From Parvularculaceae bacterium (GTDB lineage: Bacteria; Pseudomonadota; Alphaproteobacteria; Caulobacterales; Parvularculaceae), in NCBI GenBank assembly GCA_021776465.1, contig JAJFFU010000112.1:1-52847 (forward strand): a DNA stretch of 52,847 nucleotides, given 5' to 3'. Numbering within the stretch: position 1 is the first letter of the stretch; each line of letters opens with the position of its first letter. Both the position numbers and the translations under genes were made by a program. Below, piece by piece: positions 13,573 through 22,881 of the stretch. The notes below the pieces were generated by a model that worked only from the letters and a program-made list of their open reading frames with translations, did not search any database and was not told the origin of the DNA.

Positions 13573-13990
13573 AAAGGCCAGACGGTCTGTAAGCCGGGTT
13601 CTGTACTCATTGCTGAGTGACGACCATTCCTCTAGGCGCGCCATTACTGACGCGCTCAAGCAACCAACCCGGACGGCATCAGCGCGGAAACACGCCTGTC
13701 GCCCATGCCGAAACACTGGCGACGCACCGTCCCTATTCGGTCTTGCTCCCGGCGGGGCTTGCCATGCCCGTCCCATTGCTGGGCCGGCGGTGCGCTCTTA
13801 CCGCACCTTTTCACCCTTACCCAGCTGACGCCGGGCGGTTTGTTTTCTGTGGCGCTTTCCCTCGGATCACCCATTGCTGGTCACTCCGGCCGGGCGTTAC
13901 CCGGCGCCGTGTTTCCATGGAGCCCGGACTTTCCTCCCGCCTCGCGCTCAATGAACGCAAAGCCGGCGGCCGTCCGACCGTCTGGCGGGA
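13573..13990 (-). ncRNA. rnpB: RNase P RNA, type A (rnpB)
   Basis: Catalytic RNA that matures tRNA 5' ends. On the minus strand the conserved blocks appear in order: GAGGAAAGTCCGGGCTCC, GGGTAACGCCCGG, GGTAAGGGTGAAAAGGTGCG, GGTAAGAGCGCACCG, GGAGCAAGACCGAATAGGG, TTGAGCGCGTCAGTAATGGC, AGAGGAATGGTCGTCA and the end block ACAGAACCCGGCTTACAGACC. The ends pair as P1 (GCCAGACGGTC with GACCGTCTGGC), which sets the limits to within a few bases. A TTTTG follows the 3' end. Several open frames drawn across this interval are not genes. Confidence 0.96.
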
Positions 13991-17084: not shown

Positions 17085-19739
17085 TCAAGCCGGTTCGTAG
17101 TTGAGGATCGGCGACAGCCATCGCTCCACCTCCACACGGTCCATATTCTTCCGCCGTGCATAGTCTTTGATCTGATCAACGTCGATTTTTCCAACGCCAA
17201 AATAGAGCGATTGCGGGTGTGAAAAATATAACCCGCTGACCGAGGCGCCGGGCCACATGGCAAAGCTTTCCGTCAGACTGATGCCGGCATTTTCTTCCGC
17301 ACTCAGCAGGCGAAACAGCGTTTCTTTTTCCGTATGATCAGGTTGCACGGGATAACCGGCCGCCGGACGAATGCCTTGATAAGATTCTCTGATCAGCTCG
17401 TCGACTGATAACGCCTCATCTGCCGCGTAACCCCAAAGTTCACGGCGCACTTTCTCATGCAGGCATTCGGCGAATGCTTCAGCGAGACGATCAGCAAGCG
17501 CCTTTGAGAGAATAGACGAATAATTGTCGTGGCGCCGATCGAATGAGTCTGCAAAGTCGTCCTCGCCTATCCCGGCGGTAACAGCAAACGCGCCAATATA
17601 GTCCGTCAGTCCCGTCTCCTCGGGCGCGACAAAATCAGACAGGCAATAATTTGCGCCGCCGCCGCGTTTTTTAATCTGCTGGCGCAGCCCGTGGAATGTC
17701 GCGACGTCCTCGCTTCGGTTTTCATCAGCGAAAAGAACAGCGTCGTCGCCGCGCGCATTTGCCGGCCAGAAACCGACGACACCGCTCGCCTTTATCGGTC
17801 GATCATTAATGATACGCGCCAGCATTTTCTGCGCGTCATCGAATAGCGAACGCGCCGCTTCGCCAACAATCGGATCATCCAGAATTTGCGGATAGCGCCC
17901 GGCAAGCTCCCATGTCTGAAAGAACGGCGTCCAGTCTATGTAGCGCGCCAGCGTCTCAAGATCGAAATCTTCAAAGACGCGAACACCAGTAAAGGACGGC
18001 TTCGGCGGCGAGTAATTCGACCAGTCGGGCTTAAACGCATTCGCCCGCGCATCAGCAATAGCAATCCGCGGCGCCTTTGAACCGCCCTCGCCGTAGCTGG
18101 CGCGTACTTTCGTTTGCTCGGCAACGACGTTCGCAAGGTAATCACCCCGGCGCTCGTCGGAGAGTAAGTCACCGGCGACACCGACAGCGCGGCTGGCGTC
18201 TGTTACGTAGACGACGCCATGGTCATAATTCGGCGCGATTTTCACAGCCGTATGCGCGCGGCTCGTCGTTGCGCCCCCGATCAATAACGGGATTTCAAAA
18301 CCTTCGCGTTTCATTTCCGCCGCAAGGTGGCGCATTTCGTCAAGGCTCGGCGTGATCAGGCCCGAAACGCCAATAATATCCACATTGTGCTTGCGCGCCT
18401 CGTCCAGAATTTTCGATGACGCCACCATGACACCGAGATCAATCACCTGATAATTGTTACATTGCAGAACGACGCCAACGATGTTCTTGCCGATATCATG
18501 AACGTCGCCCTTGACCGTCGCCATCAGGATAACGCCGTTAGGCTTGCCTTGATCGAGGCCCTGCTCTGCTTTTTCTTTCTCCATGAACGGCGTCAAATGC
18601 GCGACGGCCTGCTTCATGACCCGCGCCGATTTGACGACCTGGGGAAGAAACATTTTACCGGACCCAAAGAGGTCGCCGACGATATTCATGCCGTCCATCA
18701 ACGGCCCTTCAATGACGTGAAGGGGACGACCAAGTTTCACCCGCGCTTCTTCAGTATCATCGACAATAAATTCCGTTATGCCTTTGACGAGTGCGTGACG
18801 CAGACGCTCCTCAACATCGGTTTCACGCCACGACAAATCCTTCGCATTAGTCTTACCGGCCTCGCCGCGATATTTTTCCGCGACCTCAAGCAGGCGCTCG
18901 GTCGCGTCGTCGCGCCGATTGAGAATGACATCCTCAACAGGCTCGCGAAGGTCAGGCGCTATTTCATCATAGATCGCGAGTTGGCCGGCATTGACGATGC
19001 CCATATCCATGCCGGCTTTGATGGCGTGGTAGAGAAAGACCGAATGCATCGCCTCGCGCACTGGTTCATTGCCGCGAAACGAAAACGATATGTTGGAAAC
19101 GCCGCCGGAGATTTTTGCGTGCGGCAGGTTTTCCTTGATGCGCTGGGTCGCCTCAATGAATTCAACCGCATAATTGTTGTGTTCGTCGATCCCCGTCGCA
19201 ACGGCGAATATATTCGGATCGAAAATTATATCTTCCGGCGGAAACCCGGCGCCGGTCAGCAGGCGATAGGATCGTTCACAAATTTCAAATTTACGGTCGG
19301 CGGTGTCCGCCTGACCGTCTTCATCGAACGCCATGACGACCGTCGCCGCGCCATAGCGCATGACTTTTTTCGCTTGTTCGAGAAATGGCGCCTCGCCTTC
19401 CTTCAGCGAAATCGAATTCACAATTGCTTTGCCCTGAACGTTTTTCAGGCCCGCCTCTATCACCTCCCATTTGGAAGAATCGATCATGATCGGCACGCGG
19501 GAAATGTCGGGCTCCGACGCAATCAGACGCAGAAACGTCGTCATAGCCTCAACGCCGTCGAGCATCCCTTCATCCATATTGACGTCGACAATCTGCGCGC
19601 CGTTCTCAACCTGTTGGCGGGCAACGGCGAGCGCACCTTCATAGTCGTCGTTCTTGATCAGCTTTCTGAATTTTGCTGAGCCGGTAACATTTGTTCGTTC
19701 ACCAATATTGATGAACGTTGCACGCGATTGAGTATTCAC
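17085..19739 (-). CDS. metH: MetH, cobalamin-dependent methionine synthase, without homocysteine domain
   Basis: Transfers the methyl group of 5-methyl-THF to homocysteine through cobalamin. The frame opens at 19829, but I place the start at the GTG at 19739: it follows AGGAAC, clears the upstream gene, and its product begins just before the conserved [13 protein letters not shown]. The 884 aa contain the pterin domain (about 10-270), the cobalamin cap and binding domains ([19 protein letters not shown], with the axial His) and the SAM reactivation domain ([15 protein letters not shown]). The N-terminal homocysteine-binding zinc domain of about 330 aa is absent. Many alphaproteobacteria encode that part as a separate gene, but none is seen in this window. 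Confidence 0.95.
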
Positions 19740-19750
19740 GGAATTTGTTC

Positions 19751-20308
19751 CTATTTGCGTGGCGCGCCGGAAAGACCAGGCAGGCCATCGATCGATTCTG
19801 AATTGGCCGCGTATCGACGTTCCCGCCACTCTTCGAGGGGCTTATTGTCCGCCCAGCGCCGGAGCTGATCTCGCTCGCCCTTGAATTCGTAAAACGGCAC
19901 GCCCCAGCCGCAACTGTCAGCGACCCGCGTGATATCGATACGGATCACCGCGCGGGCGCGATCAAAATTCGGAAAGTTCGACAGTGCTTCGGCAAACTCA
20001 GGCTGATCGAAATCGATTGCAGTCCCGCGACCATAAATACGCAAAATATTCGCCGCGCCGTCAAAAGCGCAAAACATCAATGTGATGCGGCCATTCTCCT
20101 GTAAATGCGCTTGTGTCTCAATCCCGGAACCACCGAGATCGACCCATTCAACGCATTGATCATTGACGATGCGAAAGCTGTCATATCCTTTTGGCGACAC
20201 GTTTACATGACCACCGTCCGATGTCGGCGCCGTTGCAACGAAGAACATTTTCTGTTCGCCGATAAAGGCGACATGTTTGTCTTCGAGGCGATCAAAGCTC
20301 TTACTCAT
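19751..20308 (-). CDS. Pyridoxamine 5'-phosphate oxidase-like flavin-binding protein
   Basis: A 185-aa split-barrel protein of the PNPOx-like superfamily. I choose the ATG at 20308 over the longer frame because AGGA lies ten bases before it and the product starts [20 protein letters not shown], the usual start for this group. [26 protein letters not shown] is the flavin-contact region. Substrate unknown; such proteins may bind FMN or F420 or reduce small molecules. It lies inside the metF-metH operon, 11 bases before metH, so a link to methionine or B12 metabolism is possible but unproven. Confidence 0.85.
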
Positions 20309-20325
20309 AACGAAGATCCTGACTG

Positions 20326-20916
20326 TTAATCGTCGAAAGCCGCGAGACGCGCGACAAGTCCCGCTTTCACCGCTGGCCATTCATCTTTGATAACGCTGAA
20401 AAAAGCAGAATCGCGAATGCGTCCGTCCGGCATGATCATATGCGACCGGTGAACGCCTTCATGTTTCGCGCCCAGCCGTTCCACCGCGCGCCATGAGCGT
20501 TCGTTGGTTGCGTCGAGCTTGAACTCAATGCGGTTAAGGCCCTGCTCCTCAAACCCATGAGACAGCATTAGCAACTTGCAGGACGGATTAACCGCGCCTG
20601 CCCAAACACGTTTCGAATACCACGTCCAACCGATTTCGGCGCGCTTGAACCATGGAACATAAACGAGATAGCTGGATGACCCCACATAGTCGCCGGACGC
20701 TTTGTCGAGAATTGCAAACGTGACGTCGTCAGTGCGTTCCAATTCGCCCAGCCGATACGTCATCCAGGCGTCGAAATCTGAACCATTGTGATTTACAAAA
20801 GCAAATCGCCAAAGATCCGGGTCGTCACCAGCCGCGCGCAAAGGCTCGCGATGCGCTTCAACGAGCGGTTCAAGGCGAACGAACGCGTTCTCCAAAGTGA
20901 CGGGGGCAAGCGACAT
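20326..20916 (-). CDS. GNAT acetyltransferase (RimJ/RimL type)
   Basis: A 196-aa GCN5-related N-acetyltransferase. The features seen are an N-terminal LENAFVRLEPLVEAHREPL, then RAEIGWTWYSKRVWAGAVNPSCKLLMLSHGFE, then NRIEFKLDATNERSWRAVERLGAKHEGVHRSHM, which is the acetyl-CoA binding and RimJ-like signature. Substrate unknown. It starts three bases after the metF stop and ends 17 bases before the flavin-barrel gene, so it is part of the methionine operon. Confidence 0.88.
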   Translation of the reverse strand: MSLAPVTLENAFVRLEPLVEAHREPLRAAGDDPDLWRFAFVNHNGSDFDAWMTYRLGELERTDDVTFAILDKASGDYVGSSSYLVYVPWFKRAEIGWTWYSKRVWAGAVNPSCKLLMLSHGFEEQGLNRIEFKLDATNERSWRAVERLGAKHEGVHRSHMIMPDGRIRDSAFFSVIKDEWPAVKAGLVARLAAFDD

Positions 20917-20919
20917 CGA

Positions 20920-21795
20920 TCAGGCCGCGCTTGCCGCCGCGTTCGGCTTTGGACGCACACCGAGCATATGACAGAGCGCGTAAGCCAGCTTGTCACGATT
21001 CAATGTGTAGAAATGAAAGTGATCGACGCCCTCCTCCGCAAGCTCAAGGCATTGCTGCGCAGCAACGGTCGCCGAGATCAATTCACGCGTTTCCGGATCA
21101 GCGTCGAGGTTTTGAAACAGTTTTACGAGCCGCCCGGGCAGTGTCGCACCGCAAAGATCCGCCATCTTTCGAAGCCCGGCAAAATTTGTCACCGGCATTA
21201 AGCCGGGGACAATCGGTATCGTCACGCCGGCTTTGCGCACCGCTTCGAGGTAACGCAGATACGCCGTGTTATCGTAGAAAAACTGTGTGATCGCGCGGGT
21301 CGCGCCAGCGTCGATCTTTCGTTTCAAATGATCAATGTCCGCCGCCAGCGTCGGCGAGTCCGGGTGTTTTTCCGGATAGCAACCAACGGTAATCTCGAAC
21401 GGCGCAATCGCGCACGCACCGGCCGCAAGTTCAGCGGCGTTCGCATAGCCGTCCGGATGCGGCGTGTATCGGTCGCCCGGCCCGCCCGGCGGATCCCCGC
21501 GCAGCGCAACAATATGTTTGACCCCCGCCGCCCAGTATTCCTTTAGAACACCGTCCACCTCATCGCGCGTCGCCGCAACACACGTTAAATGAGCGGCGAC
21601 CGGAAGCGCCGTCTCGCGGATAACGCGCGCAACCGTTTCGTGGGTGCGCGTCCGCGTCGAACCGCCAGCGCCGTAGGTCACAGAAACAAAGTCAGGACCC
21701 AGCGGCGCCAGTTTCTCAACGGTCGACCAGAGCGCTTCCTGCATCTTGTCCGTTTTTGGCGGAAAAAATTCGAACGATACATGTAAAGCAGACAT
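20920..21795 (-). CDS. metF: MetF, 5,10-methylenetetrahydrofolate reductase
   Basis: FAD-dependent enzyme producing 5-methyl-THF, the methyl donor for MetH; 291 aa, standard length. VSFEFFPPKT at the start, the SVTYGAGGSTRTRTHETV block, AHLTCVAATRDEVD and HIVALRGDPPGG are all diagnostic. It follows the SahR-like regulator by 13 bases and shares an operon with metH further on, so supply and use of the methyl group are co-regulated. Confidence 0.97.
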   Translation of the reverse strand: MSALHVSFEFFPPKTDKMQEALWSTVEKLAPLGPDFVSVTYGAGGSTRTRTHETVARVIRETALPVAAHLTCVAATRDEVDGVLKEYWAAGVKHIVALRGDPPGGPGDRYTPHPDGYANAAELAAGACAIAPFEITVGCYPEKHPDSPTLAADIDHLKRKIDAGATRAITQFFYDNTAYLRYLEAVRKAGVTIPIVPGLMPVTNFAGLRKMADLCGATLPGRLVKLFQNLDADPETRELISATVAAQQCLELAEEGVDHFHFYTLNRDKLAYALCHMLGVRPKPNAAASAA

Positions 21796-21808: not shown

Positions 21809-22822
21809 TCAGGCGGCGTTGCGCGCGCGCAGTCGTTTTACACCGGCGGGCGCTGCACATAGCCAGATTTTTACGGTCAATTTTTGTTTGTCGCCTTTTT
21901 TCAATGTCGCGGACGACGGCGACAGCGTTTCTGTGCGTTCAAGTTTCAGGTTGGCGGCGGCGCACCAATTTCGCACTTCTTCATCAGCAAAACCCAATCG
22001 GCGATGCGCATGTTCCTCGCGCAAAAATTCCAGATCATGGGGTGCAAAATCCGAGATGATAAGCCGGCCGCCGGGTTTTAAAACACGCGCGGCCTCGCAT
22101 ACGGCGATATCGGGCTCTGCAAGGTAGTGCAACACATGATGCACACAGACGATGTCCGCCGTTTCGTTTTCCGTCGGGAGGGAAAAAAGATCGCCATGAC
22201 GCGCCTGGGCGTGAGAAACGCCGGCGGATTCCAGATTGGCGCGGGCGATCGCCAACATTTCGTGGGAGACGTCATAGCCAACGCCCTGCGCAAAACGATC
22301 AGCGAATATTTCAAGCATGCGGCCGGTGCCGGTGCCGAGATCAATAAAAACATCGAACGGGCCCTCGCCGGCCAATTCGACCATGCGGGTCTCAATATCC
22401 GAATCCGGCAAGTGCAAAGCGCGCATGCGGTTCCATTCCGCCGCATTGTCCTGAAAGTATTGCGCGGCAAGATCGGCTCGGGCCTGACGGCTCTGGGTAA
22501 ACCGCTCGGCGTCGCGCGCGACAATGCGGTCAGCGCCTTCGCCCACAGCGCTAACGGCATCGATTAACGCTGCGTGCGCCGGGTTCGCGGTCGCCGCGCC
22601 AGAAACGCGGTAGAACATCCACGCGCCCTCGCGGTGCCGCTCTATAAGGCCTGCGTCGGCTAGAATCTTGAGGTGGCGACTGACCCGTGGCTGGCTCTGG
22701 CCCAAAATCTGGGTGAGTTCGCTCACCGTAAGCTCGCCTCGCGCCAGCAACGCCATGATGCGCAGCCGTGTTTCCTCGCCAATGGCGCGAAAGACGCTGA
22801 GAGCGGCATCAAGGGTCGACAT
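21809..22822 (-). CDS. SahR-like ArsR regulator fused to SAM methyltransferase domain
   Basis: A 337-aa protein with an N-terminal ArsR winged helix (about 8-90, LTQILGQSQPRVSRHLKILADAGLIERHREGAW) and a C-terminal Rossmann methyltransferase fold (about 140-300, FIDLGTGTGRMLEIFADR and DIVCVHHVLHYL). Fusions of this type were described as SahR, which controls the SAM cycle in proteobacteria by sensing S-adenosylhomocysteine. It is the first gene of the operon that carries metF and metH, and a perfect palindrome lies over its promoter. The specific ligand is inferred from the family, not shown here. Confidence 0.88.
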   Translation of the reverse strand: MSTLDAALSVFRAIGEETRLRIMALLARGELTVSELTQILGQSQPRVSRHLKILADAGLIERHREGAWMFYRVSGAATANPAHAALIDAVSAVGEGADRIVARDAERFTQSRQARADLAAQYFQDNAAEWNRMRALHLPDSDIETRMVELAGEGPFDVFIDLGTGTGRMLEIFADRFAQGVGYDVSHEMLAIARANLESAGVSHAQARHGDLFSLPTENETADIVCVHHVLHYLAEPDIAVCEAARVLKPGGRLIISDFAPHDLEFLREEHAHRRLGFADEEVRNWCAAANLKLERTETLSPSSATLKKGDKQKLTVKIWLCAAPAGVKRLRARNAA

Positions 22823-22852: not shown

Positions 22853-22881
22853 CATATAAAGATATCTTTATATGATAGCAA
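22853..22881 (-). promoter_or_regulatory. Promoter of the sahR-metF-metH operon with 22-bp palindromic operator
   Basis: A perfect 22-bp palindrome occupies 22853-22874 (half-site CATATAAAGAT). On the minus strand it fills the spacer and the -10 of a promoter TTGCTA-17-TATATG (22881-22876 and 22858-22853). A repressor bound here would block RNA polymerase. AT-rich palindromes with an AAAGATATCTTT core fit an ArsR-family site, so autoregulation by the SahR-like protein is likely. Confidence 0.75.

Follow-up and report, generated by a model that had tools for sequence, protein, structure and literature searches.

Methionine synthase of Parvularculaceae: two unlinked genes that appear to be kept in one predicted regulon

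The window analysed here, a 52,847-nucleotide stretch of DNA from a Parvularculaceae bacterium, carries a metH gene whose product seems to be only part of cobalamin-dependent methionine synthase. Where, then, is the homocysteine-binding half of the enzyme encoded, and do the two parts still belong together? A preliminary description of the locus proposed that the missing half lies elsewhere in the genome or that another zinc methyltransferase serves MetH.

The metH gene run in the window

Profile search of the product of the window metH gene (metH-C, Table 1) placed PF00809, PF02607, PF02310 and PF02965 in the ORF and returned no PF02574. Against the full-length MetH model NF007024 the product scores over the cut-off at positions 347-1233; since the match runs only from 347 on, the product begins at the pterin domain, in agreement with the preliminary description. 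We take the GTG at 19739 as the likely start codon, because the longer frame overlaps the preceding gene. An operon-like run on the minus strand comprises the genes for a regulator, metF, a GNAT acetyltransferase, a PPOX-type flavin split-barrel protein and metH-C; for the regulator we infer the name SahR from its place, operator and targets. The GNAT and split-barrel genes thus lie between metF and metH as had been described, and the range given at that time ends at 20308, the likely split-barrel start codon, the GNAT gene therefore falling outside it.

Table 1. Features of the metH run in the window and of the related loci on other contigs of the same genome (G000)
Feature	Location	Strand	Evidence or remark
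metH-C	window 17085..19739 (open frame reaches 19829)	-	884 codons from GTG 19739; pterin, B12-cap, B12-binding and activation domains of MetH
PPOX-type flavin split-barrel protein	window 19751..20308 (alternative earlier ATG 20380)	-	PF01243
GNAT acetyltransferase	window 20326..20916	-	PF13302
metF, methylenetetrahydrofolate reductase	window 20920..21795	-	PF02219; TIGR00676 over cut-off
SahR-like regulator	window 21809..22822	-	ArsR-type helix-turn-helix and methyltransferase domain; PF01022, PF08241; NF033788 over cut-off
Operator palindrome ATAAAGATATCTTTAT	window 22856..22871		before the regulator gene; core of a perfect 20-base palindrome
RNase P RNA, bacterial class A	window 13574-13985	-	Rfam search
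metH-N	G000:C217:9274-10359	-	362-codon ORF; PF02574; NF007024 7-352
Same operator, 1 mismatch	contig C217 10360-10375		directly before metH-N
Second PF02574 protein	L002 1232-2194 (G000:C140)		PF02574 over cut-off; below cut-off of every NCBIfam model matched

The two intervening genes had been called unrelated to metH. This stands for the GNAT gene, which is a local arrival, found beside metH-C in one of 20 other C loci, and fails for the split-barrel gene, an old metH neighbour that recurs across the order. Among 30 close PPOX orthologues (at least 57% identity) in 100 genomes, 19 lie at most 0.8 kb upstream of metH-C, 13 of them in the own family and six between the N- and C-halves in three other families (G068, G069, G071, G072, G080, G096). 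The remaining 11 close orthologues are not near metH-C, nor are any of ten more distant ones (42-47%); positions were compared by hand, and matches weaker than this last group were left uncounted. Since the split-barrel gene stays with metH-C and not with metH-N where the halves part, and stands between the linked halves in three families, its flavoprotein might be a dedicated partner of the two-part MetH, for example an electron donor reactivating oxidised cobalamin, a role that we regard as unlikely.

A MetH-type homocysteine half on another contig

We searched the genome of the window for PF02574 or MetE. Two PF02574 proteins were found, on contigs C217 and C140, and the MetE-type domain PF01717 had no match in this draft (250 contigs, 83% complete, 3.5% contamination). 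The C217 protein, metH-N, matches NF007024 with 551 bits, and the two halves cover complementary parts of that model (7-352 for C217, 347-1233 for the window). We place its likely start seven codons in, at the second ATG, because a purine-rich stretch precedes that codon. The motifs GxNC and GGCCG, which we take to be putative zinc-ligand (cysteine) motifs, are present in 47/47 N-halves examined, and DxHDIG, presumably the B12 histidine motif, in 50/50 C-halves. Solved MetH chains align with both halves, and the methionine synthase model fits each half, over its respective part, far better than the MmuM or betaine models do. The C140 protein, judged by its sequence, is distant from MetH. The first of the two alternatives in the preliminary description is hence the one borne out, by a MetH-type half on C217, and an additional zinc methyltransferase is not needed.

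Nor does metH-N sit just outside the expected operon as a simple rearrangement would have it. It is flanked on C217 by at least 7.4 kb on each side and the metH operon in the window by at least 17 kb on each side, so that even if the contigs abutted the two halves would be at least about 24 kb apart (7.4 kb as far as the end of C217 plus 17.1 kb from the start of C16). The neighbours of metH-N, named by resemblance, are a lysine-rich protein/FKBP pair on one side and an argE-like gene on the other.

Linkage of the halves among relatives

Comparison of the operon with its relatives covered 100 genomes, namely 60 Parvularculaceae (the own genome included) and 40 from four other families of the order; both halves were searched in the same genomes and their coordinates compared by hand. 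In the other four families both halves are present in 39/40 genomes and adjacent in 39/39, always on the same strand, at most 1.8 kb apart and in separate open frames. The one genome left over (G079) is without a full MetH-type match and has a MetE-type protein. In three of the adjacent cases (L078, L079 and L087, from G060, G064 and G076) about 440 bases separate the halves, room for a small gene. In Parvularculaceae, the halves are apart in 44/60 genomes and adjacent in nine, six of these belonging to the own genus (G002, G003, G004, G008, G022, G027) and three to genus g4 (G030, G038, G043). The rest comprise five genomes with metH-C and no metH-N found, one 76% complete genome with metH-N and no metH-C (G018), and one with neither (G025). 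Nine of the 44 displaced genomes hold both halves on one contig, the distance between them ranging from 66 kb (G044) to 2.1 Mb (G040); in G040, G041, G046 and G051 the halves are far apart on single contigs of 2.9 to 3.4 Mb.

In a survey of named GTDB genomes the N-half was fused or adjacent in 78 of the best 80 loci of at least 594 candidates. The two exceptions among these 80 are Parvularculaceae bacterium L.E.AP.13 and Parvularcula dongshanensis, where the N-half was sought within 1.2 kb upstream and within 10 kb on each side, respectively; in the C tree both fall inside the clade of displaced rows.

The five genomes with metH-C and no metH-N found (G006, G009, G016, G024, G034) suggest gaps in the assemblies, because four of them also lack a close argE orthologue and the G024 contig breaks off about 1 kb past FKBP. 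In G034, argE lies on a 9.6-kb contig without metH-N. Three of the five (G006, G009, G016), and also G018, have a PF02574 protein scoring like that of C140, and G024 and G034 gave no PF02574 match at all. In G016 (L038, L233), whose completeness is rated 100%, metH-C is present at 81% identity. Its contig C12 was read at the place where the sister genome G021 has metH-N, argE and FKBP; the two contigs run in parallel but part about 3.4 kb short of the FKBP gene, and the 14 kb of C12 read contain no metH-N, argE or FKBP match. This genome has either lost metH-N, leaving a true orphan metH-C, or has a gap at this place.

Gene order and phylogeny

We read 59 loci, consisting of 20 C loci and 20 N loci, a subset of the 44 displaced genomes, and 19 linked loci. 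Regulator and metF precede metH-N and metH-C in 12/14 linked loci of other families, and two linked loci read (G069, G072) have the PPOX gene between the halves. The window order equals that of linked relatives minus metH-N. On the other side, an argE and/or FKBP match lies near the displaced metH-N in 18/20 N loci (L070 and L072 being the exceptions); the displaced N loci of genus g2 have the FKBP match only, at 41-48%.

The 20 displaced rows form one clade in a quick tree of the N-halves (SH-aLRT 99). In a careful tree of 45 of the 47 N-halves, from which the long-branch L082 and L090 were omitted, displaced versus linked state maps as one change. In the N tree and in the C tree, the latter a quick tree, the nearest relatives of the own genome's half are the same, G015 and G023. 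Read most simply, these trees would point to metH-N having been relocated once, in a family ancestor, and to neighbouring genes having moved afterwards.

A common putative operator before the regulator run and metH-N

The palindrome ATAAAGATATCTTTAT before the regulator gene is the only match in the window at up to three mismatches (0.02 expected), and C217 has one site, with a single mismatch, directly before metH-N (0.01 expected). Across the genome there are five sites at up to two mismatches and none for the reversed control. The three with at most one mismatch stand before the regulator/metF run, metH-N and ahcY; the other two, with two mismatches and inside listed ORFs, are probably due to chance. 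The same three places are the only sites at up to one mismatch genome-wide in G015, G013 and G020, while G040 has two such sites, before the regulator and metH-N. At the thresholds used, no metK with a site before it was identified in the own genome or the genomes scanned.

In the 59 loci (795,504 bases) the pattern has 57 sites at up to three mismatches, none of them farther than 400 bp in front of the regulator, metF or metH-N; one of the 57 is labelled MlaA only because the MlaA gene is divergent from the regulator. On the same loci the reversed pattern gave 0 matches and seven of eight shuffled palindromes 0 to 2. The eighth, differing from the true pattern at four places, gave 13 and probably catches variants of true sites. 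The operator precedes the regulator in 20/20 C loci and lies within 100 bp of the N start in 20/20 displaced N loci, compared with 1/19 linked loci; that sole case, L090, has no metF or regulator found on its stretch. Four of the 19 linked loci (L074, L078, L079, L087) are without an operator at up to three mismatches, and therefore the motif is not universal. Judged by these sites, both halves appear to be kept under one predicted genetic switch. Control by a riboswitch was rejected, as an Rfam search at gathering thresholds, covering the window, the contig that bears metH-N and the ahcY locus, returned RNase P RNA and a tRNA and no riboswitch.

Joint loss of the native halves

The six own-genus genomes with adjacent halves might at first be taken as counter-examples. 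We read the metH loci of five of them, leaving out G004, and their native loci in G002, G003, G008 and G022. G002, G003, G008, G022 and G027 carry a linked metH-N-metH-C set elsewhere in the genome, preceded by metF in four of the five (it was unseen on the G003 stretch). The N-halves of these sets fall outside the displaced clade, among other-family rows with Hirschia, and an approximately unbiased (AU) test went against uniting them with the displaced rows in a single clade (p 4.6e-05); in the quick C tree their C-halves stand beside Hirschia. From this separate placement of the five read, and from the loss of the native genes in the four whose native loci were read, we take the linked sets to be replacements that came from outside.

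In G002, G003, G008, G022 and G025 neither native half is present. Here the regulator and its operator are retained between MlaA and a TerB/DnaJ gene, metF and metH-C are gone from beside the regulator, and the FKBP-argE locus is without metH-N. G003, one of these genomes, has sites at up to one mismatch before the regulator and ahcY. That two unlinked genes are absent together is evidence that the halves work as one unit, although genomes with joint absence may share one replacement event. G025 (L218, L221, L225), a member of the own genus rated 98% complete, lacks MetH altogether and any PF02574 protein; this genome, which keeps regulator and operator, encodes several PF01717 proteins below the NCBIfam cut-offs.

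Discussion

Could the metH-C product work with a different homocysteine partner, either the distant PF02574 protein of C140 or a MetE-type enzyme? Such a second PF02574 protein is indeed encoded, and three of the five family genomes in which metH-C was found without metH-N (G006, G009, G016) have one like it. Yet the own genome holds a MetH-type N-half and no detected PF01717 protein, the C140 protein reaches the cut-off of none of the NCBIfam models it matches, and two of the five (G024, G034) have metH-C and no PF02574 match, which makes this partner very improbable. Misbinned contigs, or an adjacent pair broken by assembly, would be a concern in any draft of 250 contigs; we consider an artefact extremely unlikely, given that the two halves of the genome share their nearest relatives, that the flanks extend at least 7.4 kb around metH-N and at least 17 kb around the metH operon, and that the halves are at least 66 kb apart on one contig in nine family genomes, four of them with contigs of 2.9 to 3.4 Mb (G040, G041, G046, G051).

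Stand-alone homocysteine methyltransferases such as MmuM and BHMT are known, and the halves might in principle be independent enzymes, the displaced PF02574 protein using another methyl donor and metH-C working with something else. The far better fit of each half to the methionine synthase model than to the MmuM or betaine models, the operator common to both and the joint absence of the native halves in five genomes all speak against it, and we give this reading very little weight. Much the best explanation, and one that we hold with high confidence, is that the two subunits of an ordinary cobalamin-dependent methionine synthase are encoded separately, by genes that have become unlinked and apparently remain one regulon. 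This is a rearranged ordinary enzyme, not a new one. Against the explanation count the five family genomes with metH-C and no metH-N found, among them G016 with its rating of 100% complete, the metH-N without metH-C in G018, the four linked loci lacking an operator and the draft state of the own genome.

In this two-subunit enzyme, the large subunit encoded in the window, which carries the reactivation domain, would transfer the methyl group from methyl-tetrahydrofolate onto cobalamin, while the small subunit from C217 would bind zinc and homocysteine, dock on the large subunit to form an active complex and accept the methyl group to yield methionine. Gene order in linked relatives suggests an ancestral run of regulator-metF-metH-N-(PPOX)-metH-C. 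From this run metH-N would have been relocated in Parvularculaceae, in most loci read to a place beside argE/FKBP genes, with a SahR-type operator of its own that either came along with the gene or arose in place. Both subunits, metF and ahcY would still answer to one regulator, which would bind these operators and respond to S-adenosylhomocysteine.

With this arrangement an apparent gap in methionine synthesis disappears, one that adjacency-based annotation would report across much of Parvularculaceae. It also offers a clean case of enzyme parts that left a shared operon yet appear to stay in one regulon: every displaced locus read has an operator for the gene itself, and genomes that acquired a complete copy from outside lack the two native parts jointly. 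Cultured Parvularcula would allow a test of whether co-regulation suffices when the genes are no longer adjacent.

Comparison with known systems

A literature search, covering titles and the starts of abstracts and few subscription journals, returned no paper on the Parvularculaceae arrangement; the enzyme is known, and what is new is how its genes are arranged. Earlier reports describe a two-part MetH in Burkholderia phytofirmans (BPHYT_RS02310/RS02305, PMC7311316) and a split metH in Sphingomonas koreensis (PMC7857596). The cut is the same there as here, into a PF02574 protein and a pterin/B12/reactivation protein; the Burkholderia genes, however, bear consecutive locus tags, whereas those studied here lie on different contigs and, in nine relatives, at least 66 kb apart on one contig.

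The three-part MetH of Phaeobacter inhibens and Ruegeria pomeroyi resembles the present one in that the subunits of a single enzyme are encoded at separate places; mutants have shown their joint function (PMC5764234, PMC12478193), and the homocysteine subunit gene mtgE is, according to PMC12478193, often not near mtgBCD. The three-part enzyme has no activation domain, its parts are described as having evolved separately from classical MetH, and its pterin and corrinoid domains are on separate proteins. In contrast, the window protein unites both domains with PF02965 in one classical C-part and is thus not of the MtgCDE type.

For the regulon the closest parallel is that of SahR in Proteobacteria, which is described by an ArsR-family regulator beside metF and a 20-base palindrome (PMC4239095; PMC8877191), with a core of sahR, ahcY, metH, metH2, metF and metK (PMC4239095). 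Our loci have in common with it the ArsR-family regulator by metF, the 20-base palindrome and the sites before the regulator/metF run, metH-N and ahcY. They differ from it in that no metK site was identified at the thresholds used and in that the operator stands directly before the displaced half of the enzyme.
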